A DNA stretch of 64,000 nucleotides, taken from the NCBI GenBank assembly GCA_963930775.1, contig OZ005689.1:7541569-7605568 (forward strand), written 5' to 3'. The stretch comes from Cliona cf. orientalis (Eukaryota; Porifera; Demospongiae; Clionaida; Clionaidae). The notes beneath the pieces were generated by a model. The model worked only from the letters and a program-made list of their open reading frames with translations. It had not been told where the DNA came from and ran no database searches. The position numbers and the translations under genes are program-made. Numbering within the stretch: position 1 is the first letter of the stretch; each line of letters opens with the position of its first letter. Below are positions 9,673 to 64,000 of this stretch, one piece after another.

Positions 9673-12252
9673 ATGCGGCAAACCAGTCGGTTTGCTCTCT
9701 TCGCGGCAGTGGCTCTGCTCCTTTTGGCGTCGCAGGGGAGACTGCAGGTTTCTGCGAGGTCTGATGGTGCTCCAACTGCTGCCTGCGCAGACCTCACCCA
9801 GCGGCATTTTGGGGCTCCACAGGACTGTGGCAGTAATTGTCCGTTCTCTGTGAGTCTAATTGCCATCGACGGAACGCCAGTAGCGGCTGGTGCTGCACAG
9901 ACCTACCGATGTGGATCGGAACACACTCGTGAGGAGAGATTAGAAATAGTTTATACACTAATTATTATTATTGGTTATGCACTCTGTCTGATTGCACCCA
10001 TGGCAGCCTGCAGGCTTCATTAAAATTAATCTAATTACCAGTGTAGTTTGCATGTTAAATTAAAATCATCAAAGGACAAGATATAGGAAAGGTTTGCTAT
10101 AGGTATAGTGTATGTGCCATGGCACAAAATTGCATGGATGAATGGCAGCTACACTATTCAAATCCAGCTAGCGAAAATGTTTGGTAGCCAAGATTAATTG
10201 CAGATGTGTGGATCATTAAATTTTAATATGGTGGATCCAGTGGTGCTGTTATATAAGTTGCTGTGGCAAATAACTTTAATATTTAGTCCTGTGCTTATCA
10301 GTTCTTTTACACCTTAGTACTATTATTGTATCATTATGTAGTTCGAATTGCAACTTCTGACTCTGCCCAGCCGTTCCGTGGGTTCGCCATCCAGGCACGA
10401 CAGTCCACAGAGACTTTCACGAACGATGCTTCCTTTCTTGGTCAGTTTGTCAATGCACCCGACGGTGGAGACTGGAGGATATGGGATTGTGCGACAGTAA
10501 GTCAGCAGCTCTGAATATGCATAACTTATGTGCCTCAATCCAAGTCTAATTTGCCATTGATTATTGTAAATTAGTATTTGAGGTCTCTATGTGACCTCTG
10601 TAAAGCTGATAAATACAATCCAATTTTTTTTATCACTGTGGATATCTGGATGTATAATAATTATAGGACATTCTTAGCCTCGTCCCCAGGACGCGCCCTC
10701 CCAGCTTTTCAATGACACTTGTTCCCATGCTCCCTGATATTTTCACCATGCAATTAAAGTGTTTAATATATTAAGGAATGGGATCTTAGTGGAGTGTGGC
10801 GTATAGTATAGTCCACCTGGTATTATAATAGTAAAGGGTAGTCACAAAGCATGCAGTACGATATCATATAATTTTTTTGGTGGGTGGGGGGGGGGAGGCA
10901 AATTAAAATTAATTTGCATATCAAACTCTAATTCATTTACCGTATCCTCCCGAAAATAAGCCCCCTTCGAAAATAAGCCCCCTCCCCTCTTTGACCTTCA
11001 AGTTCTTGCACAGGTATATTTGCCTCGATTATAAGCCCCCCTCCCACCAAGTAGATAGACTGCACATATACACGCGCGCGAGCGTATACGTACGTACGTA
11101 ACCCCGCCCTTCAATTGACTACGAGTACAAAGATGGTGCTGGCTTTTAGAAAAGCCTGTTTTGAAGTCATTCTGTTATGATGGCACTTTTAGCTTGGCGA
11201 AGACACTTACGAGCCGGTCAAGATGCTTTTACTTTCCTCTAAAGACGTATAGCTACACACAGAACAGCAAGTCCTTTTCCTACCGCCGATCCTCGTGTTG
11301 CCGCTCTTTTGGAGAAAAGACAAGCAAACTCTGGATATTTCCCGCGGTACGTGACCAACGATGGTGGCTAAGGGGGGCTTATATTCGAGGGAAAGTGTAT
11401 ATTCGAAAATAAGCCCCCTCCCCAGTCTAGGTCATGTCTACTGCTGAAAAGGGGGGGCTTATTTTCGGGAGGATACGGTACTTATTCCTGTTATCCCCCC
11501 ACACCCCCTCAAAAATGATCCATTATTTTTAGGCTTCGGCTACTCACACCAATGGAAATGACAAGACTTCAATTGATGTAACATGGAGAGCTCCTCCCAG
11601 CTTTGGCCCCAACGCCACCATGTGGTATGCACACACAGAAAATTAATAATAAGTATTTTTTACCCTTATCAATACAACTATATTATAATATTATTGCAAA
11701 CTGTGTAGTTAATATCTCTTGAAATAATTATCACCTTCGAATTTTTTTATCCCAACTGTCCTTGGTGAAATTCTGAAAATTTTCACAGAAATTCCCTACA
11801 AGTTTAACTTACCGTGTTTATGCTAATAAAGCGCATGATCTAAGAAAATAATATTATTCGTGTTCTAAGACTTTTCATAATGTATCTATTAGAATAAACG
11901 CGGTAATTGCGTTCCTGAAGTGTGACATGCATTCTCATTTACACATAATAATATTATTATTATTAATAAGATAAGCTTCTTGTCAGTGCAATTATCACTT
12001 GCATTAATATTTAATAATATCATGGGATTTAGTTCGCAGCATAGACCTATTAATTTTCTGAAGGGCAACTGTTATCACTGCTGAGTTAAATTATTATTTT
12101 TTTTTTGTATAGGTTTTCAATCACTCGGACTTTTATAAATTTCCATTCTCAAATCAGAGGACTCCAATTGGTATAATAATATTTAAATTAAAGTCTTTAA
12201 TATCAGTCATTATTGCTTTTAATTATACAGAGTGCTGATGCAGGATGTCCAG
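9673..12252 (+). CDS. Giant gene exons 1-5: signal peptide and Reeler domain
   Basis: Exons 9673-9928, 10342-10496, 11533-11624, 12113-12170, 12231-12252. The ATG at 9673 is chosen because a classic signal peptide follows (hydrophobic core FALFAAVALLLLAS, residues 7-20). The Reeler domain begins near residue 31 (DGAPTAACADL, Cys 38, 52, 56, 80). It continues with the family hallmark FRGFAIQAR in exon 2 and WDC at its end. Exon 3 gives ATHTNGNDKTSIDVTWRAPP, and exons 4-5 the last strands and an AGCP end. These five exons have mixed phases (0-1, 1-0, 0-2, 2-0, 0-1), unlike everything downstream, so the Reeler part looks like an older unit to which phase-1 modules were attached. Reeler domains occur at the N-terminus of secreted or matrix proteins. 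The 22-base exon 5 is short but joins in phase. Confidence 0.85.
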
Positions 12253-15200
12253 GTATAATAATATATAAACATAGTGGATTGGCAATATTTAAATAAGATA
12301 ACATGATATTATTATAGACTCAGTTATAGCACCAGTATATTATACTCCCATCACGACAGAGTTGTTGGCAGATTGTGTGTGTATACATGCACCTTGCTAC
12401 GTAGCTATGATCCTTTGCTCCAGGCAATTTGAGATTTTCATGCGAGTTTCAAGAGGAGGGCAATGAAATCGTAGCAAAGTGTGAAGCAGAGGGATTCATT
12501 CCAGCAAGCTTCGAGTGCCAGATTGACGACCAGCCCAGATTTGCATGTAAGTTTAGTAATGCTACAGAATGCTGATTGTTTATTACATGGCTGTGTGTGA
12601 CCAAATCTCTCTCTCTTTCTCTCTTCTTCCTCCTCTCTCTCCCTCTCTCTCTCTCTCTTTGCAGGTGAAAGGCCCTTCCGATTCCCTCTAGCTAATATCA
12701 CAGGAGTTGGTGAACATACTCTTCGAGTGATAGCGAACACAGAAACAGCCACTCCTCTAATAACCTCTGCAACAGTATCCAGTAAGTATGAAGTGACATC
12801 GCTCTCAGTTGCTATCTGCATAGGAATAGAATTAACAGAGATTCTATGCGGACAACTTATTAAACTCATCAGTGGACTTTCCAATGTTTCAACTAGATAG
12901 AGCAACTCTATTGAACAGTTAAATTGTCCACAGGGAATCTCCTTAAGTAACAAGTACAATACAGTAACATTCTTGTTTCCTAAATTGGTCCAACATTGTG
13001 CATTCCAAGAATATTTCATACTCCAGCTTGTACAGAATAGTCCCTCCCTGCATACATGCATGAGTGATAGTGCCTGCTCACATGCATGCCTTGTACATGT
13101 GCTCTATTTAATTTAGTTAAAAGGTCAAGGCACACGATTAGTAGATGGGGTGCTGTTCAAATTTATAACTAGTGATTGGCACTCTATTGTGAGCATGCAT
13201 ACTTTTAAACATCTATGACCTTTAACAGTAACCTGACCTAGGGTGAACCTCAATAGTTATGCTAATAATTATGTTTCTAGATCTTTACTCTAAGTCTATT
13301 AATTGGCTAATCTGTTAATATAATATAGAAATTGTACATGAATTAGAAAATAATAATAGTACCTATATGTGTATAATCATATTCGAACTCTGGTTTTTTT
13401 TCATGGATGTACCTACACCTGGTGCACCCTAGCCTCGTCCCCAGGCCCTCCCAGTTTTTAATGTTACACGCAAAAAAAGGGAGGGCCTGGTACGCGAAGT
13501 CACGTGCATCGTATCATGATGATGGATCGTTACGTAGGATGATGCGAACGAAAAGTAGGTCGATTGAGGTCGACAAAACCGGGCCGTTTCTACGCTATCC
13601 ATGCCTTTTATCAACTACAAACATACAGTTTGAGCCGACGAAGGATCACCTTTTACTCGTATGACAGCGATATCTCTATGTCTCTTATCATTTGCGAGCT
13701 GTAGCGCTCATAAGTCCGGTGTCCTTCGACCCGCGAGGTGTTGTGGACCTTCTCTCACCTTCTCTCTCCATCACGTGACTTCGCGTACCAGGACCTCCCC
13801 CTTTTCTGCGTGCAACATTGAAAACGTGGGAGTGGCCTGGGGACGAGGCTAAGTGCACCCATGCTTCCTAGATCAGCATTAGTATTCTCCCTCAGATTAT
13901 TCAGAAGTAAGGCACAGTTTGGCAGCCACATCAAAGGATTTGGCCCACCCCAACCCACATCAAAGGAAATCCAGGACTGGGGCCAATTAATAGTCCCTCC
14001 CTGCCTTTAGTATACTGAGAATTAACACCGTCTAAGACCACTGTTGGATATGTGGTTCCTTTGATCACCCAGCGTACCGTGTTTATGCTAATAAAACACA
14101 AGATATAATTAATACAAGGAAAACATAAGATCTAATTAGTGCAAGAAAATCTGCATTCAATTATTGACGACCTTCACCATAAAATTGCGCGGCAGTTAAA
14201 ATCATTATTACTTTTTATCTTGCAGTCTATTAGAATATTATATTTACTCTCCCCCTTGCAGTCTCGCCTCAGTTGGATTGTGCTGTTTCTCAGAGTGGCA
14301 GCACGTTCAGCGTCCAGTGCACTCCCAACGACCAGCCGGACTCAGTCTTATGCACAATCAATGGAGAGATTTTCACTCCTTGTAAGTGCATGGCCTTATA
14401 GCTAGCTAGCTATGTTGGGAAAAAAAAACTTTTAGGAATGATTCCCATCCACCTTAACTTATTTCCAAAAAAAATTGGATCCGGGGGAGGCATTTTACAT
14501 ATTTTCTTCGGGTGGCTCAATGACTATGCTCCTATAATATTATACATTAATGAAGAAGAGCAACATTAGTTTGAGTTTAGTTGATCTTATAATATGCCAT
14601 ACTCCAAAAGAAATGCATGATATATACTACAATTAATGTACACCAAACTTTAGACTTAAAGTAGAAGCATTTATGATCAGTGGGTAGCTTGAAGTGTGTT
14701 TATCACACTTGCTATTTTAACACGCAGGTGAACTTGATAAAATCGAAGTTGATACTGGAGATTTCGATGCTGAATCCGTCAATATGCTGACGATATCCTT
14801 CACAGTGGATGGACAGACTGCACAGAGGTCTGTCACTTTCACTGGTGAGTGTGCATCCATGAGGACGTCATCTGCTAATTAATATAAGATGATAGAAATA
14901 TCCAATTCAATTTTTGTGCTTTGTGATACTCATGTGCTACGATAAGCTAGCTAACTGGAGAACAACAATAGTGAACATCCCAGATCCTTAATATAACCCA
15001 CCATCCCTGTTTAATCAATGGTGAAATAAGTGCTGGAGGAAGAGGGTTTGTATGCATAGCCAGAAATGACATCTAACAACACTAACTTGATTTAAAGCTC
15101 TACTGTTCTATACAACCATGGCAATCATCACTTCCTGGCTGCCCAATACAATCCAATCAACAGCTGTTCTCACTCATTCAATTACCACCTCAAAAGTGTA

Positions 15201-17776
15201 CACACTCTCATCTTTGATGACTGGCTCATGCAGCTGATAGCAGCTACTCATGTGCCTAATAATTCAATTTTGTCTGGTGGAAAGTGTGACTGTGTGTGCA
15301 TGACTTCTTGGGCTTTTGCAGACCTGCACCAGTCCACCAACTATGTGCAATAATGTGATTGTGGCTTTCGCTGGAAGTTAATCGAAAACATGAGAAAGCC
15401 CCTGATTTGATTGAGTCATTTCGGGCTGGGGGGGGGGGGTGACTTTAGAGGGAGGTCCTGTGAAGGAAGTGGTAGGAAAGAAATTGTAGGTAGTGGAAGG
15501 AATAAGGATTATCAACCAATGTTGATCTATAGATCCCTCTTTATGAAAGGCCAATTTACTTACTTATTATAGCTAGCTGAATGATGATTAAATTAGCGAT
15601 TAAATTAAGGGGGTTTGCCTGATCCCAGCTAGGCAAATTAATGTTATAATGATTGACCATGCTGCCTTTGGGGGTGGGGGGGGGGGGGGTTGCCTGATTC
15701 CCAGCTAGGCAAATTAGTGAATTAATGTTATAGTGGATTGACCATGGTGGGGGAAGGGCCAGGTTATAGTGGATTACCTCTTTGGTCTGTACATATAATA
15801 GTTATCTGCCAGTAATTGGGGTGCATTCGACCATGCATCTCATGCATCCCAATTACTGGCAGATAACTATTTTGTTGGTAGTTGACCTCTGTTCATCATT
15901 GGCCTACTTTATGATGACCCAACCCCTTCCCATAGCCGGCAAACTGCCTATAAAAACTTTGATTGCTAGGCAACTACCAGCAAATACATGTGTAATAGTT
16001 AGCTTAGAGACTGACTGAGTCCAAGGTCTCTATGCATTTTAAGAGAGCTGGTCATGCAGTACAATCAGTAGTGCACACAAATGGTAGGTGTACACCTACA
16101 ATATACCACAACTACCACAAGAAAAACCAGGATACAGAGATTCATGGGTATGGGTAACTTATAATTACACTACCACATAAAAACAGCAAGGCAGCCAGCA
16201 CTTATCCACATCAGAGCAGCTCATTTTACAGCAACAGATTTCAACACATTCTTGTGGCAGTAAGCTAGTTCCAATATCATTATCCCATTGTATACTGTAG
16301 TCCCCAGAGTGGCTTCTCTGGCTGTTTTTGAAGTCTTCTCACTTAATTTGTGGGTCCTCTGCCTGCTGCCTTGGGGGCTGTTTGCTGGGCCTCTGTGGCC
16401 TGAGAACAATTATATTATGTATTGAGTAATCCTGTTACAATTAACTCCATGGTGTTGATTGGGCCCTGTGTGGATGGGATGTGTTGCTCTGGGTGCATGG
16501 GAAAACTATTCTTGTGGCTTGCTTGCAATAGATTGCATTGCATGTAACATTTGGGGGGGGGGGGGGGGGGGGGGGGATGCAAGTGTCCACTCTTTGGTAT
16601 ACTTTGTAGTGTACTTACCATTATACTAAGATTATAGTTGTCCGTGTGTGCGTGTGTGTGTATGACCGGAAAGGTGACCGGAAGCGATTCGACCCGAGCT
16701 GAAACGTTTCATTTTTAGGCATCGCTGGACTTGGGGCGATACAATAGATAGCCCACTAACACAGCTGGGTATGGCCCCAGCAGCGACTGAAGTCAGCTAC
16801 ATGTACTTCAAAGAAACGCCAGGGCAGACGTAGACTGAATAGCAACACTTTATTGATTGAGTGTCCCCCCTTTGCATTCTCCAGGCCACCATTGTAAGTG
16901 GTGTACTGCTGCTGTTAAGAGCTGTTGTTGTTGATTGCTTGATGAACGTATTGTACATAGTGGTATCACTTACAATGGGTTTGGACTTGGACAGCTAGCA
17001 ACCATCTGTAGCTATTGTGATTGTATTTGTGCGCATATAATGCAGTACAAGTTACGCCCTGTACTTAAGACAATGCGAGATGCAAAGCTTTGCAACTTGA
17101 TCATTATCAAAGATAATGGTTTTTACATAATATGTAGCAGCATTTCTGCTCCTACCTTAGTGTCATTAAAGTTAACTGCATCTCAATTTAGTGAATTTAG
17201 GGACAGAAAGCAAATTCGTTAAATTAACATGAGGCTAAAAAAATATTTGTGACGACATAAACAAGGTTAATTGAACAAAATAAGTAATACATGACACTGT
17301 TAGTAATTAATTTATTAAAGGACTCAATGGCAATAATATAATATTATTATTATTATTACACTCCGAAGTGACACTGACTGTTCTGAGCAAATAATTATAT
17401 TATTGCCGTGTATTATTGATCCAATTAATAATATAGAAACAGTTTGACATAAACATTTCACATAATATTATGGATTGTGGTAATATGCTCCTGTTTCCAC
17501 TATACATAATAATGTTGTTTACTAATTCTTACAGGTACAAGACGTGAAGATCCATTCCAAGTTAGCTGTTCTAGTGAACTCTCCTCTGACCAATCATCAA
17601 TCATCGTCGAGTGTACTGGCAACAGGGAGATAGCGTCCCAAGTCTGTACCCTCAATGGAAAAGATATTGCTGAGTGTAAGTCTGACTCGCATAGTAACAT
17701 GTTTGATAAAGGGGGAGCTCTGTAGAAAAGGATCTAGTGCATTTCCGAAACAAGGGAGGCACCATGCAACTCCCCA

Positions 17777-17808
<32 letters not shown>

Positions 17809-20800
17809 ACAAATGTACGTCCCTATGTCATATGATTCCTTTGTATCTGTCTGTTATGAACTTATAATTTTATGAGAGAAAATTTTTGTGGCCATTTTTC
17901 ACTGACTAATTGAATATCTATTTATAGGTAAACTGCCTCTGAGCATTGCTTCGTCAGAATTTAACCCTGGTGTGAACTTTCTTGAGATAGTGTTCTCTGA
18001 TGCTGCTGGAGATACTGACACATACAGAACCAACATCACAGTGGGAACTGGTGCGTTATGTATTTAATAGTTATTACACAGGGCTCGAGTGCCACTCGGC
18101 AAATATTAGCACAGTAGTGATGTAAAGCACGACGGCCGCAGGTCCGAAGACTTTACGGAGCTACATGCCAATAGATGTTGTGTGACATGAAAGAAGGCCG
18201 TGTAATAACTGTTTTGTTATATAAACGACTAGCGAAGGATCTCTTTCTATGCTATGTGCCTCAGAGAGATAGCTACTAGACTCCTCAGAAAAGCCTATTA
18301 CGTGGTGAGTTTACTCAGCCGCGCTATAATAAAAGAACGGGCTGCTCGATTTCAAAATTTACTTGGACCAAAGGCAAAGCTAGATTGTCTCCAAGATCAA
18401 CGCTATTGCTAACCATGTATTGGCATGATCCTTGTCAGCCTTGCACTAGTTTGGTAAAGGGTCGTCACATACAGTGGTACACACATAATATTATATAGGC
18501 CATCCAGGCCATATTAGTTCATGATCTTGTAGCTAGACTTTCACATACTGATTTTCTGTATCCAGGATTTTCTCTTCAATGTGAAACATCAAGTGGTAGT
18601 GGAACAATCCAAGTATCCTGTGTCGCTGAGGGTGGTCAGGTGACAAATGTAACCTGTATCTATGACGATGGAGCCATCGTGGAGTCTTGTATGTATCATC
18701 ATGAAATACAGAATACAGTACACCACACAGAGACATGATATTCAATTATTAGCTCATCTTCTTTCTTTTTTGCTTTCTCTCCCTTGATCTCTCTTTCTCC
18801 TCCCCCTCCCTCCCTCCTTCCTCTCCCTCCCCTCCCCACTCCCACACCTCTCTCTGCCTTTCTCTCCCTCCTCTCTCTCTCTCTTGTCCCTTGTCTTGCA
18901 GGTGATCTTGATACGTCTATTGACTTGGCAAGGTTTGATGCTGGAGCTCACACTCTTAACATTATTGCTAGTACAGCAGATGGAAGAAGTGCACAGGCTA
19001 CCCTTGGTTTCCAAGTGGCTGCTGGTAGGTCACTCTAACGTACAGTTTCTCCAGCTAGGATAAAGTACATGTAGTCGTACATATGTTTATTATTGGCCTT
19101 AGTATCCTTGCTAGCAACCAAAACTTTTTTAAGCAAAAATGCCGGCTACCAGAGGCTTATGGGTGATCTTAGGGTTTTGCTAATAAAGAGAGGGGTCATG
19201 GTCCAACAGAGCAAGACCTTGATTTGACCACGTACCTCCTAAACCCCAATTACTGTCTCACAACTTACTTGCATACCTTTTTCGATCCAACTTCTATGCT
19301 ATATTGACATTGCCTTTGTCTATTTACCAGTTCTAGTCCCGGGTGGTACGTAAAATTCAAACTTTCCTGCTATCTCTGATCATGATATGCATTATTGCTT
19401 ATATGCGAATTTGTCTGAACATGTTGTGCATTATTGTTTACAGCACCGTTTTCAGCCAACTGTGACACAGCAGTCAATGATGACAGCACTGCAGTGGTCG
19501 TGGAGTGCACTGCCAACAGGGATATTGCCTCACAAACATGCACCTTGAACGGAATAGAGATTGCCAACTGTAAGTCAGTTGAAACAGAGTTTCTCTTTCT
19601 GTAATATCAAGGGCTTATAGACCCCAAAGGGGTCTATAAGCCCTTGGTAATATATAATTATTATGCTCTCCTGATTTATACTTGAGCATCTGGGTATAGC
19701 TATAGAAAGGGCCGGATAAATTCATGTGTACATGTACACTGGACATAGAATACTATTGGTATTCTTGCTAGCTGAGTTATTCTTCTGGTACAAGACAGGG
19801 AGAGTATTATAAAGAGTGGAAGTATGTATTTGATGTTGCAATACGTACCACGGTCAGTGTAGGAAATATACATAAATCCCTGGGGGAGGGTATAACGTAC
19901 ACCCTCTTTGCCAATGATAAAAGGGTAAATCAGGATATAATAGTATAATTTTGATGTTGCAATACCACGGTCATATCTTTTCAGGTTCTCTGCCTCTTGA
20001 GATACCCGTCGCTGGTCTGATGGCTGGTGCCAACTCTCTTCAGATTGTTCTAATGGATGGCGAGGGAGCTAGTGTAACTGTAACATCAACCATCAACATT
20101 GGTCTCCCAGGTATGGCAATATTCAGTTTAGTAAAGGTCATCACATCATTCACATATGTACATGTATGATATAAGCTGTACTGTATTTTCGGTTATTTCC
20201 GTCATCGTTTTATTTTCGAATGTCATAACAAAAACGAAAATTAGAAATACGAAATGTAAACGCATGCGTATTCATAACGTTAACGTATACGGTAAGGGGT
20301 CGCCGCATTCGAAAATTACTTTACACGAAAATTTAAAATTTGAATAATTTTTGAACGGAAATAACCCAAAATACGGTATATTAGTTAGACACTGTTTAGG
20401 AGGTTTCTACGTGATTTAGAAGACCGAAGGACCGTACGTAGAATCCCGAGCGAAGCGAGGGTTCTACGGGCCCTGAGGGCTTCTAAATCACGTAGAAACC
20501 TCCTAAACAGTGTCTAACAAATTTAGATCATAGCAACCGAGCGCGCTGCAACGGCGCTTCTCGATCTATAAGTGTTGCCATGGTCTCGTACGGCCCAGAA
20601 ACGATGTGAATCTACGATGGCTGCTAGAAGAACTGTTGTTCAAACATTGTATAGCTCTCCTGTGACTCGAGAACTCCTAGCAAGTCGCCATTAGCTTCGC
20701 TTCGCGCTTGCTAACTCAGTAAGCTCCAGTGGACTCCACCTACTATTGCATCGCGATCGCGCACGCGCGATGTCTGAACGGGTTGCATACTTGTGGTTGC

Positions 20801-23800
20801 GTGTACTCAACCACAGGTACTTGAATGTTAGTGGGCTGCTAGACTGAAGTTTCTGTCTCCATTTTTTGTATCCATGGATACAACCAAGTTGGCCTCATGC
20901 TTCAAGCTATGAAATTTACAGGTGTCTATGAGATTTTTACAAGTGTCTATGAGAAATAGACACCTCCTCTTGACCAATCAGATCACAGTATTTGTTATAA
21001 CTATGATCTAAAGTATGCTTAGCCTATAAAGTGGGAATAGAGTTTAATATTGTGGTATCAACATAATACGTGTAGAATACTCTTAGACTAATTATGGAGA
21101 TGATCATCACCAAAGCATCATATCGAATTTTAGTTTGCCACAAAAATTTCTATAATATTATGCCATCTATAACCCATTGTTGGACCAATTCTCTTCTTTT
21201 CAGAGCTGTCTCTTGCGTGTGGAGCATCAAGTGGAGCTGGAACAATCCAAGTGTCTTGTGTCGCTCAGGGTGGTCAGGTGACAAACGCAACCTGTATCTA
21301 TGACGGTGGAGCCATCGTGGAATCTTGTATGTATCATCTGATTATGAAATACGGAATACAGTACACCCCACAGAGACATGATATTCAATTATTAGCTTGT
21401 CTTCTTTCTTTTTCGCTTTCTCTCCCTTGATCTCTCTCTCTCTCTTTCTCCTCCCCCTCCCTCCCTCCCTCCCTCCCTCCCTCCCTCCTTCCTCTCCCCA
21501 CTTCCGCACCTCTCTCTGCCTTTCTCTCCCTCCTCTCTCTCTCTCTCTCCCTTCTCTCTCTCTCTCTTGTCCCTTGTCTTGCAGGTGATCTCGACACGTC
21601 TATTGACTTGGCAAGATTCGAAGCTGGAGCACACACTCTTAACATTATTGCTATTACGGCAGATGGAAGAATTGCACAGGCTACTATTAGATTCCAGGTG
21701 CCTGCTGGTAAGTCTAACATTTTCTACAGCAATTGATACCGTGCGACATAGTGGCCAGGAAATAATATATTAATCGTCATTAAATTTTTATCCTAGCAAC
21801 CAAAGTTTATAAAATTGTCGGGTACCAGTGTGGGTGATCATAAGGTAGGCCGCTGATCCAAGGACCAACAAATACTTTTGATTTGACTGTGTTCATCTCG
21901 TACACCCCAATAATTTTCTAATTCCAATCCAAAAAAATTAAATGTATCTATAATTTAGTAGCAAGACTGCTCTTATTTATAATAAACTGTGAGATGTTGT
22001 CGAATTTGAGATTCTGAACATGTTGTGCATTATTGTTTCCAGCACCATTTGCAGCCAACTGTGACACAGCAGTCAATGATGACAGCACTGCAGTGGTCGT
22101 GGAGTGTACTGCCAACAGGGATATTGCCTCACAAACATGCACCTTGAACGGAATAGAGATTGCCAACTGTAAGTCAGTTGGAATAGAGTAAAATATATTA
22201 TTTTACTCTCCTGAATTATACTGAGTGTCTGGATAGCAATAGAAAGGGCTGGATAATCCTTGTGTCCACTGGTCATAAATTACATGTATGCGTATATAGG
22301 TATTCTTGCTTGCAGAGGTGTAAGAGGGGGAGAGTATGTATATATTATGAAGAATGGGAGGATACGCTCCTCTCTCTTCCAATCCTCTGTACAGAAGCTG
22401 CTACATTTAGTGTGTGTGTGTGGGGGGGGGGGGGGGGGGAGGGGGGAGGGGGGAGGAGTGAGGGGGTAGGGGGGGATATCTCTCTCTTCCCACTCTTGGT
22501 AGTATAGTATCACATACATGTATTAAATTTGATACTGCAATGCCATGGTCGGTATAGAAGATATTATACGTAAATGCCTGGGGTGATGCTGCAATACCAC
22601 GCACATATCTTTAATTTCAGGTTCACTGCCTCTTGAGATACCCATCGCTAGACTGATGGCTGGTGCCAACTCCCTTCAGGTTGTGCTAATGGATGGCGAG
22701 GGAGCTAGTGTAACTGTAACATCAACCATCAACATCGGTCAGCCCCCTGTCACAGGTAAGGAATTTTCAATGATGGTCATCAAATCATAATAATAATACA
22801 AAGCTATTTAATAGTAATAGAATATGCATTCTGAAATGTTCATATTATTTACCTATAAAATTAGGCTAGGCTTGAAATTTCAAACAATATACAATGTTGG
22901 CAGATACGTATTAAATTTAGTAATAGTTGACAGTTCAATTACGTAATACCATAATTAAATATGGAATCAACATACAACGTAATGTGATACGTCAGAGTGG
23001 TGATACGTAGATACGCTTGTAGAAAACTTTGCTACCAAACCGTCATATTTCATTTCAATTCCCCACCAAATTTTCTACATGACACCTGCAACTCGTTGTT
23101 TTAATGTATTCCTTTCAGAGCTATCCCTTCAATGTGGAACTTCTAGCGGAGGTGGAAAGATCCAAGTGTCCTGTGTCGCCCAGGGAGGAGAGGTGTCCAA
23201 CGTCACCTGCATCTATGACGATGGAGACATTGTCGAATCATGTAAGTTAAACACTAGATTTGTGATTGCTACATATGTACATGTTATGTTCGACTGATTA
23301 AATAAAACTAGGGTTGATTGATTATTTTGTATCGATTAATTAAGTTAACGTAGGAGCAATTGTATTGAGTCATGCAAGTTGCTTTTTAGATATAATTATT
23401 GTTGATAACTGATTTAATTGTACGAATTAAGATTGATTGTGAATTTGTATCCATTAATTTGTGTTACCCTAGGAATTCACTGTTGGTGCTGGTTAATGTA
23501 CGTACTGTGAATTTACCACACAAATAATTATTGAGTGTTGCTTGCAAAATTTAGTGACTCATGCTGACGCCAATATGCACAAATTGCTCGTATGATTGGG
23601 ACATGTGGGACAACAAATCTGATAATTATATTTGTTGCATGTAGCTTATCCTGTCTTAATTAAGAATTCATAACACGTACTGACGTAGCTAGTGAGATAG
23701 ATGTGCATATATAACACTATTAAATAAGACGTTTACATCAACTAGTAGCTTATCCTATCTCATCATCCATCCTTATACACACATACAGGTGCTCTTGACA

Positions 23801-24012
23801 CTTCCATTGACCTGTCTAGGTTTGAGGCTGGACCACACACACTACGAATCATAGCAGAGACAGCCGATGGACTAATGGGGCAAATTATTGTTCGGTTCAA
23901 CGTCTCTGAAACTGTTACACCACTGAGTGAGTTTTTTTTGTCTGTTGCTTATGATGTATACAGCATAGATATCTCAGGAGAATACATACATTCCTGCTTT
24001 ATCTCAAAACAA

Positions 24013-24044
<32 letters not shown>

Positions 24045-48000: not shown

Positions 48001-51000
48001 GCTCCAGAAGTCAATCAAGAAGACAGTCCCACCCATCCACCCCACCCCCTAATCATACAATACACTGTCATAATGAATTGTTTACTAAAATCAATATCAA
48101 TGCCTAACTATCTATGTAGACCAGCAGAGCTCAACAGCAGCAGCCCAGTCCTGCGTCCTGCCTGAGGGAGCCCACAGCCTTGAGCACAACAGTGCCTTGA
48201 GCTGTCTGAAGACTCAGAGAATCTAAGGGGGGGGGGGGGGGGGAAGGAGAGAGAAAGAGATAGATGGAACGGGGGGAGAGGGGGGGGGGGGACAGACAGA
48301 CAGAGAAAGAGAGAGAGAGAGTGAAAGAGAGAGAGATAGTTAGAGAGTATGAGTGTGAAAGAGAGAGAGAGAGAGGAATTAAATACCGAGTTAAATTGCA
48401 TGGACATACATGTACATACACGGATAATTTGACATGCATGTTACTTGTACGGTTATGGACGAGGATGAAGGAACTAGTACCTGTGCAGCAAACTTCATAA
48501 ACAGCTACTGAGAAGACCTTGTCAATGTATCAGTCTCAGAATCACTGTTGAGTCAACAGCCAGTATCCCCGTTGTTTACATCCACACAAACCCCAAGCTC
48601 AAATGTGCCAGCTTATAGCTATACATACCTGTCCCACCGCATACGATCTGATGCAAGACTAGTCGACTCTCCCTCCTCATGTTTGTCGCCAGCTCTAAGC
48701 CAGTCACTCCCTTCTCTCCTTCTCCCTCCCCCCCAATTTCTACAAGTACATCATACATGTACATGCACGCATAGATACATGTACGTACACATGCACACAC
48801 ACACACTCTTCAACATGCATACACACACACACACTCTTCAACATGCACATAAACTCTCCCTGTTTGTTGCCCTACTCTTCATGTACCTTAGCTTTCCAAA
48901 TCTAAACGATGAGCAGACTCTGAAATCCTCACAGTGAGAGTATCACATCCAATCAGTTGGTAGACTCACAGCGCAGTACAGAGCCTTCAAAATCACATTT
49001 TCTACAACAAAGGTAAAGTTTTTCACAACCGTAGTTCACATCAAACAGCGCACAAAGCTAGCTAGTATTAAAATTCACAGCTGCAAACGGCTATCTCATG
49101 TGTCAGACTCCTTCGTACTTAGCCAGAAGTACTTCATGTTGAATCACACCCAGGGGTGTTTATTACATGCAGCCTTAGCTATACGAACAATCATAGACTT
49201 ACAAAGTATAGAGTCCATCGCTTCTCTCGATATCTTCTCCCTAAGACCAGGACTGCTGTACTGGCGCTCTCTCTGTGGCCATCTTTCCCGGCAAATTCAT
49301 TATGGCGCTAACCGCGTGGTGTAATACGGAGCGTATACGGAAACATTGAACGTTGAGTTATGTACGTACAAAACGCTCCGTTTCTCGAAAAATTATTAAC
49401 TGAGGCACGGGTGACCCGTGTACAATTTTTTGGCCATAACTCGGCTTAGGAAGCTTTTTAGAGCCTGGCTCTTTGACCGTTGAACTCTACAGTAAATTCT
49501 GCGTCGATCTATACCCAAAACGCGATTTTCATAAAAAATTGCGAGTGGTCGATTTTTCCATAGCGGGTCACATATAGCACATCAACAGATTACATCAGCC
49601 AAGAGAACACCACTTAATATCAATGGTAGCCATCAGTAAAGTATCAGCCCGATAGCCAACCACCCTCATTCTTAATTGGTAATCGTGCTTGAATAAGGCT
49701 GAAATTGATGGTAGCCACTGCTACTATTTGAATTATGAAGATACATATAGTGTGGGTAACTTACCTGGGTGCTCTTTCACGTCTAAATGTGATACTCATA
49801 CCTCAAGTATCAGCCCATCCCCCAATCTTGGCTTGATTTAAGGTGCACCCTCTTTTGCGAGGGTACGGTAATTTATTACTCTGTTCCACAATTATACTTG
49901 TTATAGGTGAGGTGTCGTTCCTCGAGATAGACCAGTATTCATTTAGCCCCGGTCCCCACACTCTCACCATTGCCTTCAATTTAACAACCGGGGGAGAGGG
50001 AGAGTTTCAGTACAACTTCACTGGACGAGTTAGACCACGTAAGCCAACATGCATATAGTACAAGATTGGGCATAAACGATTGTGTGTTTCATTTCTTTTA
50101 ATAGCTGCTGTGTTTGAGTTGCCCTCAGATGGAGGAGTAATTGATATTATGGAGGGTGAGGAGTACGAGGAAGAGCTGCTCTCCAGTGGTTTCAGTTATG
50201 ACAGAGTCCCTATCAGAGTCTACAGTCTAACCTACTCTGAGTATGCAGCCGCAGGCTTCAACCTTGAGGACAGTTTTGATGCCAACGTCATTCCAGCAAA
50301 TGCTGCTAATGGTTTGTTATTGCTTTAAGTGACAACAATGCATTTTAGCAACTCAACATTGCATAAATGTGGATGATTGTGTGGTCCAATTGAAACTTTT
50401 CTATCCAGTCACCTAAATGTTTCACTTGTATAAGTCATGCACACCATGTAGCGAGTCTTATGATTATGTGTCTGCGAGTTAAGTAGATCATACGCACCTT
50501 ATGCAAATTCAATCGGCCACAAAGTCATTGGCATGCCTTTAGATGTTTTGTTAAATTAATTGTCACATTTTTTTCCCTTATGCATAGCATATGATTTTGA
50601 AGAAGTGGACACTACCCTACCTGGTCTGGCTGAAGGTTTCTTTGATCCACCAGAATTGTACCTCGAAGCCTACCAGGATGGAATTGCTGAGCAGTCGGAA
50701 GGCTTTGTGCTGCTCCTTGAGATTGATGAATCTGAACTGGATCCAAGAGATGTGGGAAATGTCAGTCTGTCTCGATCAGTCTACCTTATCAGGATCAATC
50801 AATCAGGTATAATACCCACTATACACAAAATTATCATTTCTCTGACAAGAAATAGAGTCCCATGTTGATCAACTGCCACGAATGGCAGTATGATAATTGT
50901 GGTGTAGATTCTTCATATTACTATAGTCTCCTCGTGATTAATATTGTTAGTCTATCATAAACAGCTGACAGCATTCACAGAATTCCATCACTCTACTATG

Positions 51001-54000
51001 TGCAGACACTTCAAACTTCCAAGTCCTTATTGGAGATGTTGATCTGGGGCAAGATAGGCAAGAAGAGTTGCTGGAAGTGGCTGCAGTGGAAGACGAGAGA
51101 GTACGAGTATTTGTCACCGACGAGCGTCAAACAGCGATAGTGACCAATGGAGCTTATATCCTCCTTGACTGGTTTAGATGGGTGACCGAGACACTTGATG
51201 ATTCTGCCATCAATGCAACGTACACCATCCGTAGCACAGAACTGGATGAAAACGGTGACCCAGAAGAAGAAGCTGAAGAGGTTGAATCCAGTGACAGAAT
51301 CGAAGTCGAGTTTGAATCTGACGAAGATGAGTATTATGTCAAAATCTCTCGTGTGATTGCAAGAGAAATGGATGACGAGGACCCAGACCGTGCTATCTAT
51401 GAGCTGGAGGCTTGCGTTCCTCAACCTGATGGATCTGAGCAATGCTATAAATCCAATATTACTGTCTTCGCTATCCAAGTTGTAGAATTGGAGTGCTCGC
51501 AATCACGTGATAGTCGGTTGCTGAATATCACATGCTTCTCTCCTGGCAATGAACTTGACAGCAATGCAAACTGTTCATTTGATGGTGGTCCTGCTTTTTC
51601 ATGTGAGTGAGTGCATGTATAAAGACTAGTATTATATCAAGTATAAGCGACCAGCAGCTTCTATAATAGTTGCATCATAGTATTGTTTGATATTTACAAA
51701 CAATAGAGCTTATTTTAAGCATAACAGCACCCTCTTCTGTATGAATATCATAGTATTTATGGTCTGTGTGTTACCATCCATCATTAAACTTGATCTCCTT
51801 CATAGGTTCATTGGCATTCTTTGAGATAGACCAGTTCTCATTCAGTCCTGGTCCTCACACTCTGACCATATCCTTCTCTGTGAGCACTGGCGAACAAGGA
51901 GAATTTGTCTATGAATTCACAGGACTAGTCAGAGAACGTATGTCAATATATTGCTATAGAATTATTGATTATATCCAAACGTTCACGAACTGGTGTTTTT
52001 GTTGTTTTTTTTTGCATTTGTAGCTGCTGTGTTTGGGTTCTCTTCAGACATGGGTTCAATTGACATCACCGAGGGTATAGAGTATGAAGATTCTCTGCAA
52101 TATTCTGGGTTTTCTTATGGTGCAGTTCCTATCAGCATTACCACCCTGACCTATTCTGAGTATGCGGACAGAGGCTTTATCCTTGAGAACAGTTTTGATT
52201 CCATTGCAATTCCATCTAATGCTGCCAGTGGTTAGTAATTGTAGAGTCTGCATTAATATTATGAACTTGCTTGGTATGTTTTATATTAGCTATGGAGTCA
52301 CCCTTTCACAAGGAAACAATGCACTATACTATTACATTTTAGAAGCTTTCCCGTTAACACTCAACATAATACAACTGCATGTTTATTTTGGTCTCTTGTA
52401 CTTCCTTTGGGCCAATAATTATAGTCTAGGACCTATTCTGTGACGACTGATAGTGATAAGCTTCATCTACACATGTAGTATTTGATTATGAAGAAGTGGA
52501 CACAACCTTATCTGGTTTAGCTGGTGCTGTATTTTCCTCACCATCGTTGACCCTCAATGCCTACCAGGATGGGGAAGCTGAGCAGTTGGAAGGTTTTATC
52601 CTCTACCTGGAGATAGATGAGTCTGAACTGGATCCGAGAGATGTTGGTAATGTCAGTCTCTCTCGATCAGCCTATCTTGTCAGGATCAACCAATCAGGTA
52701 CAACAATGAAGTTGGTTATAGAAGTCCCTTCACACTACTATACATTTTATGTTAAAGTTAAACGTTTTTAGCATTAGAATCCTCTATACTGAGAAGTGCA
52801 TGCATGTTGTTGTTTTTTTCTGCCTATTTATTAGACCAGTCTCAATTCCAATCCAAAGAGGCTTACTCCATTAAATGTTGCTAATTGTATAACAGTCCTT
52901 CCATTGCGATGGTAATCATGGTATTTATGGATATGATCCTGAAAATGATGCTGGATTGGTGCACTAAGACTGACATTATTATCATACTTCCGAACAAGAT
53001 GTGTCGTTATCGTCTATGATCTTACTATTATACAACTATTCTTGTCATTAGATACTTCAAATTTCCAAGTCCTCATTGGAGATGTTGAACTGGGGCAGGA
53101 CATACCAGGATTACTCGACGTTGCAGCGGGAGAGGAAGATAGAGTGCGTGTGTTTGTATCAGATGACATCCAAACTGCAGTAGTGACAGACGGAGCCTAC
53201 ATTCTCCTGGATTGGTTCAGATGGGTCACTGAGACACTCGGTGATTCAGTTGTCAATGCTACATTCACCATCACTAGTACAGAACTCGATGAAAATGGTG
53301 AAGTAGATGAAGAGCCTGAAGAAGTGGAGTCTAATGACAGAATCAAAGTAGAGTTTGAATCAGATGAAGATGAATATTATGTCAAAATCAGTCGTGTTGT
53401 TGCAAGAGAGACCTCTGAATATGACCCAGATAGGAATATCTATGAGCTGGAAGCTTGTGTAGATCAACCTGATGGGAGTGAGAGATGCTACAGTTCCAAC
53501 ATCACTGTCTTTGCTATCGATACGCTACCTCCAGTGGAAGCTCTCGGTATACCTAAGGATATTTTTGTTCGTGGGTACTAGATTTAGCGAAATTAGCAAT
53601 TTGCCCAATTTCACTAAAAATTGTACCCATGAATAGTAAAGTTTTCAATAAAATTTAATAGATGTTAATCGCTAAAATGTGTACCCACTATTACTGAAAT
53701 CCACTAAAATTTGTAACTGCAAATAATCATAGCCCTAAAGTATATAATCTCTATTGCATTAGTTGCATGAAATGGGGCCCACTAAAGATTATCTGCTTGC
53801 CCCTAGTTTGCTTCAATATCCTGCCAAGGTCTCAAGATTAGTTGAAAGAGCGCCCACCTAGACACTCATTGGTAATGTTATTTTTCCACTATCTAGCCAA
53901 GTAAAATGCATATATTTTTCACAACACGATAATTATGGTATTAGCAGTAAGCAATTTGCACATGATTCTCAGTAGAGCATAATATTATGAGTTACGAAAT

Positions 54001-57000
54001 ATATTCTACTCTATAGAAATTGAATGTAATGTGGCAGCAGTTAGTGGAATTGTTCGAGTGATGTGTGAGTCAAACAACCCTCTTGAGTCCCCTGGAACTT
54101 GCACTCTGGACTCTTCTGAGGAGGAATCATTCAACTTTTCATGTAACACTTTCATAATTTTGACTCTATAATGAGAGTGATAAATAATATGGCTTTTCCA
54201 CGGTTGCATGTTTAGGTAATGCTGCAGGAACATTTGTGATATCTATTGACGACTATCCTCCTGGTGAATACAACCTAACTATCGAGGCTGAGGACATATT
54301 CGATCAGGTTGCGAATGAGACGTTTACTATTTTCTTATCAGGTACTTAAGCCATCATGATAGTAATCTCAGTGGGGGCTTGACTCCATTATGTGAAGCTT
54401 TGTGTCAGTTACTGAGTATTGGATTACACAAAATATTATGCTGTTGAAAAGGTAGTTTGGGGTGGATTGGGAAAGAGGCTATTTTCTGAAGGTACAACAT
54501 ACTTCACTGTACAGATTAAAAAAAAATTGCGAATGCATGGTGGCATTTTCTATGGTGTTGTATTTTATAGCACTAATTTTTATTTCCACTTTCTTACATA
54601 CATTCTCACAGAGCCACTATTGATTGGAGCTTGTGTCTATGACGTATCTGATCTGTCAGTATTTTGTAATACGACCTTGGATCAGACTCAAGTGGAACTT
54701 GAATATTTGTGCTCTTATGACTCAGGGCCATTCGAATCCTGTAATAACTGTAGTAGTTTATTATTGCATGTGTACTATAATATTATTATTTTCCCTTATG
54801 CCGAGTTAGGATTTCAGAATATCGCATGGAAATTTGGATAGCTTTAGATATTGACAGAAGTTACCATAACAATAGTTATACCTCTAGTTGGTAGGGTACA
54901 GGTATTATGATGGTGATCTGTGTGTCACTGTATGCACATTATGTGTATATTTTACATCCCTGTGTCTTATCAATCTCTTCTGTGTGATTTAGGTGGGCCT
55001 AACTTCATAGCTGATGATGTACGTCTTGCTGTTGGAATGCACTCACTGGAGATCACAATAAGCACTGAATTAGGACAAGTACTGAGTGTGCCCCTGGGAA
55101 TTATTATCCCAGGTTTGTTCCATTGAACTATGATTTACCTCTTCCCTTAAAAATTAATGACTTTCACCTTTCTCTCCCTGTACAGAGGTGGAGCTATTGT
55201 GCTTGCCCATAATGGATTTCAATCTTATAACGTTTAGTTGCTCTTCACCCAGTAGAGAAATAGACACTGCTACTTGCTCATTTGATGGCGGGCCAGCCAC
55301 TCCATGTAAGTATAGTACATGTTATCATAATACCATTTAGTGTAGATAAATCACACTGAACCTTTGCAATTACAGGTGACTTGGAATTGTATACCATTGA
55401 CCAGTTTTCATTCAGTCCTGGCCCACATGTTCTGACAGTTGTGTACAATGTGACCTCTGGAAGAGTGGGAGAGTATCGGCAGAATTTCACTGGAGAAATT
55501 AGACCACGTACGTTAAATCTAATTTCAAGTGTGATGTCTGATCAAACTATCAGTTACATAATTATCATGAGTTTATCCCATACACGATCTTCAATGCATT
55601 AAACTCTGCAAATAATTATTGTAGCAAAATTTAATTATTATTACGTATCCTTTGTCCTTTCAGCTGCCATCATCAATGAACTCATTTCAGCCGATGGAAT
55701 AATCGACATTATTGAAGGACAGCCTTTTACTAATATCCTGACAACTAGCGGTTTCAGTTATGGTAACATCCCCATCAGAATTTCTACATTGACCTACTCT
55801 GAATATGCTGCAAGTGGTTATGTCCTGGAAGATGACTTTGATCCCAGTGAGATCCCAATGGATGCTGCAGACGGTATGAATATCAATTATTACAATGTAT
55901 AATGGAGTTGCTGGGCCATTTGAGTGATGTGGAAGCATGCCCCTTTGCACACACCTTTAAAATGTATTTTATCCCTTCTCGAATCACCTATACTATCCCA
56001 TACTGTATTAATAAAATATTGATCTGTAATCTGAATGAGTGGACTGTCCATACACCCCCATTTTTCAAATTGCCTTTATTTCAAAGAGTGCCTACCTAGC
56101 TCCAGCATTGTGAATATTATCAATTTCACACTACAAGGTGTGTATATAGTTTCACAGTGGTTACTCTAGTTTAAGATGCATAGCCCATGCATGATGATAC
56201 ACACTGCATGCACTGTTTTGACTATAAGCTTGGTAACAATTTAAGCTTAATATAAGATGGGAGTAAATTTTGTGGACCCTAAGATTATGGTATATCCCCA
56301 TTAATATTCAACTCTGGAGACTATATATAAAGCTAATATTCTTTCCTTTTCTCACAGTTTATGACTATCGGACCATCGATAGGACGATTTTTCTTATTGC
56401 TGGTTCCCCTGAAAACAGTAACTATGAGCTGACACTTGATGCCTATTTGGATGGCCTAGCTGAAGAGTTGGAAGGTTTTGTACTCTACCTGGATGTGATA
56501 GAGTCAGAACTGGATCCAAGGGATGTGGGACAAGTTAACCTCTCAAGATCTGTTTACCTTGTTGTCATCAATCAATCAGGTGTGATATATATACTTTATT
56601 CTTTTAGGGATCGATGGTTTATTACTTCATGGCTTTTCTTTGATTAGATACTTCAAACTTCCAAGTTCTCATTGGCGATGTTGAATTGGGACAGGACATA
56701 CCAGGATTGCTAGATGTTGCAGCGGGAGAGGAAGATAGGGTGCGTGTATTTGTTACCGATGAGATGCAAACTGCTGTTGCTACTGAAGAAGCTTACATTC
56801 TCCTGGACTGGCTGAGATGGGTGACTGAGAGATTCGGTGATTCTGCTGAAAATGCAACATTCACACTCTACAGAACACAGCTAAATGAATCTGGTGCACC
56901 ACTAGGACCTGAACAAGTGGTCAATGCTTCCACCGACAGAATTGAAATAGAGTTTGAGTTTGATGAAAATGAATATTACGTCAAAATTGAAGAAGTAGTA

Positions 57001-60000
57001 GCAAGAGAAAGTGAAGGGGAGGTTCCAGACAGAGCAATTTATGAGTTGGAAGCTTGTGTTCATGCTTCTGGAGGAGACCCTCAATGTTTCAGATCTGGTA
57101 TCACTGTCTATGCTATAGATACAGCTCCACAACTCGGTAAGTCAATTATATTACTAGATTTGTTTCCAATAGCTCCAATAGCTCCAAAAGACTGAATATG
57201 TTAGGGGATTAGCCTTCAATAATGAATCATAGCATGTCAAATTGTATAATTGGTGAGCAAAAGCTCCCACTAGTCTCCTTGGTGTATCAATGATCTATAA
57301 TACAATTATGTTATCTACCGTGCATGGTTTGACTCTCTCAAGATTGAGCATAAACGATTGTGTATTTGTTACTTTTAATAGGTGCTGTGTTTGAGTTGCC
57401 CTCAGATGGAGGAGTGATTGATATTATGGAAGGTGGGGAGTATGAGGAAGAGCTGCTCTCTAGTGGTTTCAGTTATGGCCCAGTCACCATCAGGGTCTAC
57501 AGTCTGACCTACTCTGAGTATGAAGCTGCAGGCTTCAACCTTGAGGACAGTTTTGATGCCAACGTCATTCCAGCAAATGCTGCTAATGGTTTGTAATGAC
57601 AACTATTTATTGTAACTTGCAACTCAAAATTGCCTAAACATGGATGATTTGGTATTCCAATTTAATTTAGTACCAAAATGTTTCACTTGCATAAGTCATA
57701 CACACTGTGTAGTGATTATAATGATTACTGTACTTGCTCTAATTATCCAAAGGACCAAAAATATTGTTATTCGGCGTTAAAGGTAACTAAATTAGGCCAA
57801 TGGCTTGTTCGAGAGTAAATAGAATCGATTCGGCAAAAAGTGCTAGCAACTAAGAAACAGCAGTCAATGTCCATATATAGATTTATCGTTGTCAGCTATA
57901 GAGCTATAGTGTCGCTGTGCTCTGAGCGATCATAAAATGATCGCCGTCAGTGTAAGTCCGTGTTACCTTTCCGCTCTTAGATGCTGTCCAAGATGTGGTA
58001 GCCACAATGATCGATGAATGCGGAAGAGTTGTCTCGAGCTCCTGCCATGCCATACTGTGATCATTTGGTTGATTAATAGAATGGGTGGGAAGAATTGAAA
58101 TCCAAGATGTTTTGAAGGAAACAAACTTGCTGTTTGGGCTATTAGAATGTTCCAATAATTAGAGCCAGTATGGTATTTGTCTGCAAGTTAAGTAGATCGT
58201 ATGTACCTTATGCACATTCAGTTGGCCAAAATTAATAGTAATTGACATGCCTGTAAATGCTTAGTGAAACTTTTGGTAGCTGAGTAAAAATTCTTCTTTA
58301 TCACTTAATTTTTTTCTCATATATATAGCGTATGATTACGAAGAAGTGGACACTACCCTATCTGGTCAAGCTGGAGGCATGTTTATCCCACCAGAATTGT
58401 CCCTCGAAGCCTACCAGGATGGAATTGCTGAGCAGTCGGAAGGCTTTGTGCTGCTCCTTGAGATTGATGAATCTGAACTGGATCCAAGAGATGTGGGAAG
58501 TGTCAGTCTGTCTCGATCAGTCTACCTTGTCAGGATTAATCAATCAGGTATAACACCTACTATACATAAAATTATCATTCTTTGACAGGAAATAGACTAA
58601 TCGCTTATGTAGAGCCCCACGCTTGGATGATCGCCATTGATGGCAGCGTGATGATTATGGAGTAGATTCTGCGTATTATAGTCCTATGACAGCTAGTCTA
58701 TCATAAACAGCAGACAGTGTTATAAATACATCATTCTACTATTCTACTATGTGCAGACACTTCAAACTTCCAAGTCCTTATTGGAGATGTCGATCTGGGG
58801 CAAGATAGGCCAGAGTTGCTGGAAGTGGCTGCAGTGGAAGACGAGAGAGTACGAGTATTTGTCACCGACGAGCGTCAAACAGCGATAGTGACCAATGGAG
58901 CTTATATCCTGCTGGACTGGTTTAGATGGGTGACCGAGACACTTGGTGATTCTGCCATCAATGCAACGTTCACCATCCGTAGCACAGAACTGGATGAAGA
59001 TGGTGAGCCAGAAGAAGAAGCTGAAGAGGTTGAATCCAGTGACAGAATCGAAGTCGAGTTTGAATCTGACGAAGACGAGTATTATGTCAAAATCTCACGT
59101 GTGATAGCAAGAGAAATGGATGACGAGGACCCAGACCGTGCTATTTATGAGCTGGAAGCTTGTGTTCCTGCTTCTGGAGGAGACCCTCAATGTTTCAGAT
59201 CTGGTATCACTGTCTATGCTATAGATACAGCTCCACAACTCGGTAAGTCGATTAGATTTGTTTCCAATAGCTCCAAAAGACTGAACATGTTAGGGCATAA
59301 GCCTTCAATAATGAATCATAGCATGTCAAATTGTATAATTGGTGAGCAAAAGCTCCCACTAATCTCCTTGGTGTATCAATGATCTATAATACAATTATAT
59401 TATCTACCGTGCATGGTTTGACTCTCTCAAGATTGAGCATAAACGATTGTGTATTTGTTACTTTTAATAGGTGCTGTGTTTGAGTTGCCCTCAGATGGAG
59501 GAGTGATTGATATTATGGAAGGTGGGGAGTATGAGGGAGAGCTGCTCTCTAGTGGTTTCAGTTATGGCCCAGTCCCCATCAGGGTCTACAGTCTGACCTA
59601 CTCTGAGTATGAAGCCGCAGGCTTCAACCTTGAGGACAGTTTTGATGCCAACGTCATTCCAGCAAATGCTGCTAATGGTTTGTAATGACAACTATTTATT
59701 GTAACTTGCAACTCAACATTGCCTAAACATGGATGATTTAGTATTCCAATTTAATTTAGTACCAAAATGTTTCACTTGCATAAGTCATACACACTGTGTA
59801 GTGATTATAATGATTACTGTACTTGCTCTAATTATCCAAAGGACCAAAAATATTGTTATTCGGCGTTAAAGGTAACTAAATTAGGCCAATGGCTTGTTCG
59901 AGAGTAAATAGAATGGATTCGGCAAAAAGTGCTAGCAACTAAGAAACAGCAATCAATGTCCATATATAGATTTATCGTTGTCAGCTATAGAGCTGTAGTG

Positions 60001-63935: not shown

Positions 63936-64000
63936 GTATGTTAATGTGTGGCTAACGTTGTTGTATTAGTTCATAATGATGTTACTTTTTTACATTTGTA

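Follow-up and report, generated by a model that had tools for sequence, protein, structure and literature searches.

Sponge aggregation factors are secreted proteins with a Calx-beta array, a Wreath domain and VWA/VWD domains, Spondin-1 is a secreted matrix protein, and the S-locus of Brassica pairs the receptor kinase SRK with the secreted SLG. To our knowledge, the self/non-self molecules of sponges and the ligands of the many sponge receptor tyrosine kinases are largely unknown. Here we analyze a giant gene in a 64,000-nucleotide stretch of the sponge Cliona cf. orientalis (the window, C1:7541569-7605568 in a genome of 217 Mb and 149 contigs), whose predicted product joins a Reeler domain, Cys modules, V-type immunoglobulin (Ig) modules and Calx-beta domains and shares modules with a neighboring array of receptor tyrosine kinases. 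Common modules in a putative giant matrix protein and an array of receptors point to concrete candidates for a ligand-receptor or adhesion-signaling pair and open this question to experiment. The locus resembles SRK/SLG in linking a secreted ectodomain relative to a receptor kinase; it differs in that SRK and SLG are plant proteins with unrelated domains, whereas here the secreted gene is a giant and the receptors number about 15. In the open-access literature, we recognized no description of a Reeler-Ig-Calx-beta giant or of a Calx-beta receptor kinase, which does not in itself prove novelty. PMC12018476 cites a receptor tyrosine kinase from the sponge Geodia cydonium; its likeness to the receptors described here is the Ig-type ectodomain.

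The giant can be read as a single gene on the plus strand from 9673 to 78817 (window numbering, with coordinates above 64000 in fetched flanks), predicted as one open frame that spans about 69 kb, with approximately 116 exons encoding some 7,540 residues. A splice model self-trained on the plus strand with an exon penalty of -9 gave 85 exons in a single frame. This model started at 4557 with two exons foreign to the gene and lacked most of the Reeler exons, which were therefore spliced by hand. Exon starts at 27619/27810 and 37687/37957 were corrected using the open frame and paralogous exons, and a spurious predicted exon (48534-48680) was removed. The resulting curated model holds 84 exons and 5,491 codons within the window with zero stops, confirming an earlier note on this DNA that had joined 85 exons into about 5,574 stop-free codons. 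Up to 78617, it comprises 115 exons and 7,502 stop-free codons, with 110 of the exons starting in phase 1, and a terminal exon read by eye (78702-78817) closes with a stop about 14.8 kb beyond the window, so the gene does run out of the window as the same note had stated. Gene finding at a low exon penalty over-predicted (478 exons) and was discarded, while a 184-kb run merged everything into one gene, and boundaries were thus taken from paralogous starts, stops and kinase exons. As a control, coding statistics from 31 out-of-window exons alone returned 86 exons in the window (score 1357, 78 of 86 in phase 1-1) and recovered 71 of the 84 curated exons exactly, compared to a score of 86 on the minus strand (0 of 26 exons in phase 1-1) and 10-28 in five dinucleotide shuffles; the splice-site matrices of this control were trained on the window itself, making it not fully independent.

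Independent support for the coding nature of the giant gene came from an older duplicated block. The region 51006-57136 recurs at 62918-68766 as 14 exon pairs, with 95.4% identity in exons versus 88.7% in introns (gaps excluded), a synonymous divergence (dS) of 0.126, a nonsynonymous divergence (dN) of 0.026 and a dN/dS of 0.20, and this exon conservation indicates that the protein sequence was kept. A recent tandem triplication of an SGFSYG module plus an Ig module (copies 57382-59242, 59471-61331 and 61573-63403) has exons 99.2% and introns 97.7% identical between the first two copies, with 96.1-96.7% in exons and 96.3-97.5% in introns for the third, that is, no excess exon conservation. Judged from these identities, the gene is enlarged through internal duplications of several ages.

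The domain content was examined with Pfam scans that took in the whole protein except its final 38 residues and two repeat copies that are nearly identical to others. The N-terminus, behind a predicted signal peptide, matched Reeler (PF02014, 53.3 bits with a cut-off of 21, residues 38-176), and exons 35463-36892 matched Calx-beta (PF03160) in two stretches, with 30.0 and 37.3 bits in two scans (cut-off 27). The Reeler and these two Calx-beta stretches were the credible Pfam families in the protein. A CBM-like match (28.8 bits, cut-off 27) straddling two Cys modules was set aside, and sub-cut-off matches to Adap_comp_sub, NAD_binding_3 and DUF7064 were disregarded. The structure predicted for the 161-residue repeat module is that of a V-type Ig fold, and no Pfam Ig family was listed for the 10 of 12 copies scanned. 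Hence, among the three domain types named by the earlier note, Reeler and Calx-beta rest on Pfam profiles and Ig on a predicted structure with no Pfam Ig. The commonest repeated unit is the V-type Ig module plus the SGFSYG module, the latter encoded across two exons and without a family match in Pfam or significance in a comparison with the Ig module. Spondin-1 offers the likeness of a Reeler domain in a secreted matrix protein, with the difference that its Reeler (PDB 2zou, 2zot and 3coo) matched that of the giant only weakly (E 0.13-0.21). A genome-wide Reeler search gave 22 matches on C7, C15, C3 and C10; the Reeler of the window, split over exons, was not listed among them.

The giant protein looks secreted rather than membrane-anchored because it has a predicted signal peptide, a stop at 78817 and no hydrophobic segment on par with a receptor transmembrane helix: over the 7,502 residues scanned, the top 19-residue hydropathy was 1.84, versus 3.46 for the transmembrane helix of a control receptor. 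The signal peptide was judged by hydropathy (3.14) and a paralogous start. Kinase exons (six exons of one receptor, E 1e-3) found their first match at 121073, well beyond the giant gene, and the gene thus has neither of the two hallmarks of a receptor tyrosine kinase, a transmembrane helix and a kinase domain. The same 7,502 residues contain 1263 acidic and 336 basic residues, 98 N-glycosylation sequons and 170 cysteines. Lysine is unusually rare, at only 0.4% compared to about 17% acidic residues. The earlier proposal of a matrix or cell-surface protein therefore holds for a very long, repetitive, extracellular and modular product, and less for the cell surface, since features of secretion are favored.

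Modules of the giant recur downstream in putative receptor genes that begin at about 116 kb, the first receptor Ig exon lying about 38 kb past the stop of the giant. Genome-wide, the Ig module gave 30 matches, 27 of them on C1:7568462-7784543 (216 kb), one on C6 and two on C8; the C6 copy is accompanied by a kinase, whereas near the C8 copy the listed matches include no kinase exon of this family. The SGFSYG module gave 27 matches, 26 on C1, of which 24 lie in the giant gene and 2 at 7.782 Mb, and a single one on C8. In genome-wide exon searches, with 150 of 164 kinase candidates scored, the order Ig module, Cys-rich exon, kinase exon alternated eleven times along C1 7.658-7.790 Mb; the first alternation had no Cys-rich match, one interval held an additional Ig copy containing a stop, and four further pairs of Cys-rich and kinase exons followed up to 7.873 Mb. 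These matches indicate an array of about 15 putative tandem receptor tyrosine kinases, 11 with an Ig module. The array is defined by exon-level matches, and about a third of its sequence was read, covering the kinase exons of seven receptors, in five of which transmembrane and kinase exons stand in order. Receptor-type signal exons precede four receptors (132214, 143191, 158012 and 169452). The joined kinase exon pieces of one receptor scored 246.5 bits against PF07714, with MER and AXL as the best single-domain structure matches; the first-listed chain, of EGFR, contains two kinase domains at 136.8 bits each.

The receptor genes carry the Ig module, Cys modules, a Cys-rich exon and Calx-beta together with a transmembrane helix and a tyrosine kinase. 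In common with the giant, the tandem receptors at C1:7.66-7.87 Mb have the Ig module (12 further copies on C1; 11 receptors), the small Cys-rich exon, a Calx-beta-like domain split over two phase-1 exons, and Cys modules. The 33579..34938 part of the giant is 48%, 44% and 42% identical to the membrane-proximal part of neighboring receptors by tblastn. In one receptor, at C1:7.7816-7.7921 Mb, the parts run from Cys, SGFSYG and Ig through a further Cys module, Cys-rich and Calx-beta to transmembrane and kinase, with the first Cys module modeled in the second half alone; in the giant, the repeat unit is one or more Cys modules, an SGFSYG module and a V-type Ig module. What sets the giant apart is its Reeler head, the large number of unit repeats and the lack of both a transmembrane helix and a kinase.

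On the basis of these shared modules, the anatomy of the giant is best read as that of a kinase-less relative of the receptor ectodomains, secreted, multiplied and with a Reeler head, and we consider it about an even chance (roughly 0.5) that such a protein acts as a matrix ligand or co-adhesion partner. The ligand or co-adhesion role toward the receptors is inferred from the shared modules, linkage and multivalency. Phase-1 exons would allow modules to duplicate and pass between genes with the frame intact, and the cluster could in this way have generated a kinase-less ectodomain gene that multiplied and carries a Reeler at its head; the locus would thus illustrate how receptor-type ectodomain modules can multiply into a secreted protein. 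Once deposited in the extracellular matrix, the protein would form a long multivalent scaffold stiffened by calcium, whose repeated Ig/Calx-type modules might meet receptor modules, so that matrix contact would cluster and activate the kinases. The giant and the receptors may accordingly form one recognition or adhesion system, and a role in cell adhesion or self-recognition is possible. It is rather unlikely that the locus as a whole is a recognition complex of phase-1 modules drawn from one shared pool, in which the giant would serve as a multivalent ligand or self-label read by about 15 receptors and might underlie tissue self-recognition.

Several points weigh against the kinase-less ectodomain relative with a partner role. 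The mean predicted local distance difference test score of the Ig module structure model was just 68.7, and hhalign comparisons of the SGFSYG module with Calx-beta were not significant (P 0.44 and 0.12). The giant is one mRNA by prediction from sequence, its binding to the receptors is putative, and the case for calcium binding consists of acidity plus a small number of Calx-beta domains. A tree of 21 Ig modules places eight of the 12 giant copies in a clade (100/99) separate from that of the main receptor group (99/97), which means that like-to-like binding is not implied. The SGFSYG-bearing receptor and the C8 copy form a group of their own (100/99), four giant copies fall outside, and the tree gives no direction between receptor and giant modules as ancestors. 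Finally, among the receptors a next start may lie only 0.8 kb past the last matched kinase exon (131415 to 132214), so that the 794-base gap at 36893-37686 in the giant could conceal a gene boundary.

The likeliest alternative, possible although we think it rather less probable, is that the giant is a purely structural matrix or adhesive protein, whose modules are shared with the receptors merely through local tandem duplication and exon shuffling and which has no link to the kinases. Phase-1 modules duplicate readily, the internal duplications are of several ages, most giant Ig copies and the main receptor group sit in separate clades, and the composition is that of a polyanionic secreted protein. 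The near confinement of the Ig module to the cluster and the Cys-SGFSYG-Ig order retained in one receptor speak for a closer tie between giant and receptors, yet both are compatible with a structural protein all the same.

We regard it as unlikely that the block contains two or more genes, with a Reeler gene that stops near 24.9 or 36.9 kb and another gene of Cys-SGFSYG-Ig repeats after it. The gaps at 24867-26879 and 36893-37686 divide differing module sets, the Cys-rich/Calx-beta set (33.6-36.9 kb) adjoins the membrane in receptors and could terminate an older gene, and neighboring genes about 0.8 kb apart do occur. However, a hydropathy scan of 9000-83000 with 24 ATG candidates placed only one weak candidate in the first gap (25250, 2.02) and zero in the second, receptor-type signal exons and kinase or transmembrane exons matched in neither gap, and the exons flanking both gaps are phase-compatible. 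The scan was itself unspecific, since candidates elsewhere in the gene, at 20156 (3.08), 63458 (3.1) and 66377 (3.42), equal the true start in hydropathy (3.14). A second Reeler gene, with a paralogous start at 81983, 3.2 kb past the stop of the giant, has a Cys pair at 98 kb like the second pair of the giant, which supports the assignment of Reeler and Cys modules to one gene. The single giant gene is preferred. The intron at 24867-26879 contains a two-copy 159-bp tandem repeat (24940-25253, 98% matching). The second Reeler gene was traced from 81983 to about 98.6 kb, and Ig and fibronectin III exons come after this part as far as about 110 kb. When four short exon pairs of the two Reeler genes were compared, dN slightly exceeded dS in one of them (0.137 versus 0.124).

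A role in immune recognition, in which the secreted giant would coat microbes and the linked receptors would signal as the soluble and membrane arms of an innate system, appears improbable. It would suit the predicted V-type Ig fold and the large tandem receptor array, as well as the lower constraint on Ig modules (dN/dS 0.16-0.60 among six receptors, 15 pairs) than on kinases (0.08-0.17 among five receptors, 10 pairs, several with dS above 1 and near saturation); membrane-proximal exons gave 0.21-0.56. In PMC6208332, a Reeler-domain gene and Calx-beta genes of the sponge Aplysina aerophoba are among those responding to microbial patterns, and the Reeler-domain gene is described as similar to insect defense proteins. 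Nevertheless, the Reeler and Calx-beta link to Aplysina is one of domain names alone, and positive selection on the receptor ectodomains was sought by averaged dN/dS and not found. The receptor Ig modules are under looser yet purifying selection than the kinases, and the averages speak against strong diversifying selection over the whole module, with a few selected sites still possible.

Membership in the sponge aggregation-factor family, with which the earlier note had suggested a comparison, is very improbable: the likeness is secretion and the presence of Calx-beta domains, whereas the giant repeats V-type Ig, SGFSYG and Cys modules, has, among about 60 modules counted by hand, three Calx-beta stretches (two from Pfam and one from alignment), showed no VWA/VWD in Pfam scans of all but two repeat copies and the C-terminal 38 residues, and the strongest Calx-beta matches among those listed lie elsewhere in the genome, many on C19. 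The overall interpretation in that note is partly supported, for an extracellular modular protein but not for the aggregation-factor tie, and the receptor kinase modules, lying outside the window, had been out of its sight. A group of eight strong Calx-beta matches at C19:156-192 kb perhaps marks an aggregation-factor-like gene; identity to the first match is about 93% or higher in seven of them and 38% in the eighth.

In order along the plus strand, the giant starts with the signal peptide and Reeler, nine Cys modules, an Ig pair, two Cys modules, the small Cys-rich exon and three Calx-beta domains, and continues with the repeats. Exon 1 (9673..9928), hand-spliced, carries the signal peptide and the start of the Reeler, whose Pfam match extends over the joined exons, and is 88% identical across 34 residues to the paralogous start at 81983. 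Five further hand-spliced exons (10342-10496, 11533-11624, 12113-12170, 12231-12252 and 12324-12374) complete the Reeler, as judged by Pfam, and add a linker; the paralog matches them in four stretches at 82.1-84.2 kb. The nine Cys modules (12424..24866), counted from the exon list, take two exons each (about 41 + 41 residues), all in phase 1. The first V-type Ig module (26880-27359), from the gene model and the genome search with the Ig module, is the most divergent copy, and the second Ig-like exon (27619-28095) was assigned by eye, without a Pfam match. Two Cys modules follow (28347..33015), the first exon of the second (32455-32502) being probably incomplete in the model. The small Cys-rich exon (STT, 33579-33725) was recognized by its tblastn homology to the membrane-proximal part of the receptors, and the Calx-beta-like domain over two exons (34407-34544 and 34717-34938) by alignment alone, outside the two Pfam stretches, which correspond to the two Calx-beta domains at 35463-36145 (two exons) and 36482-36892.

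From 37687 to 45046, the gene model and genome searches placed Cys modules with three SGFSYG modules (38421, 41381 and 43628) and two V-type Ig modules (42419-42901 and 44552-45046). The next stretch (45372..57136) holds Cys modules, SGFSYG modules (50105, 52024 and 55664) and Ig modules (51006, 53052 and 56648), and leads into the triplication. The second half of a Cys module lies at 63804-63935, its first half being fused to the Ig exon 62918-63511. Beyond the window, three Ig modules, three SGFSYG modules (plus one by eye) and about eight Cys modules lead to the stop, the C-terminal end consisting of Cys-type modules.

Among the neighboring receptors, the copy at 143.2-155.2 kb appears to break frame within its Ig exon and contains a stop in one kinase exon, pointing to a pseudogene or an assembly error. 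From C1:7.7930 Mb onward, upstream of a kinase exon at 7800031, lies a gene with a Cys-rich exon and then several Calx-beta exons like the 33.6-36.9 kb part of the giant. The 45 best-scoring genome-wide matches to the receptor kinase exon (C1, C13, C19 and others) were 73-100% identical, and at least eight of them had a Calx-beta match within 15 kb upstream. This count is a lower bound, as 44 Calx-beta rows entered with one or a few per cluster, and three shorter kinase matches (75-76%) were excluded. Calx-beta receptor kinases may thus be a large family in this genome.

Upstream of the giant, from -17.5 to -0.3 kb, exons for secreted proteins of the CAP/SCP type recur (Pfam CAP, 34.8 bits), and within the window 2260-2606 is a mucin-like repeat rich in Thr/Ser. 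The exon at 4581-4724 and the C-terminal module of the giant share 44% identity over 48 residues, which suggests a remnant or the 3' end of an upstream relative.

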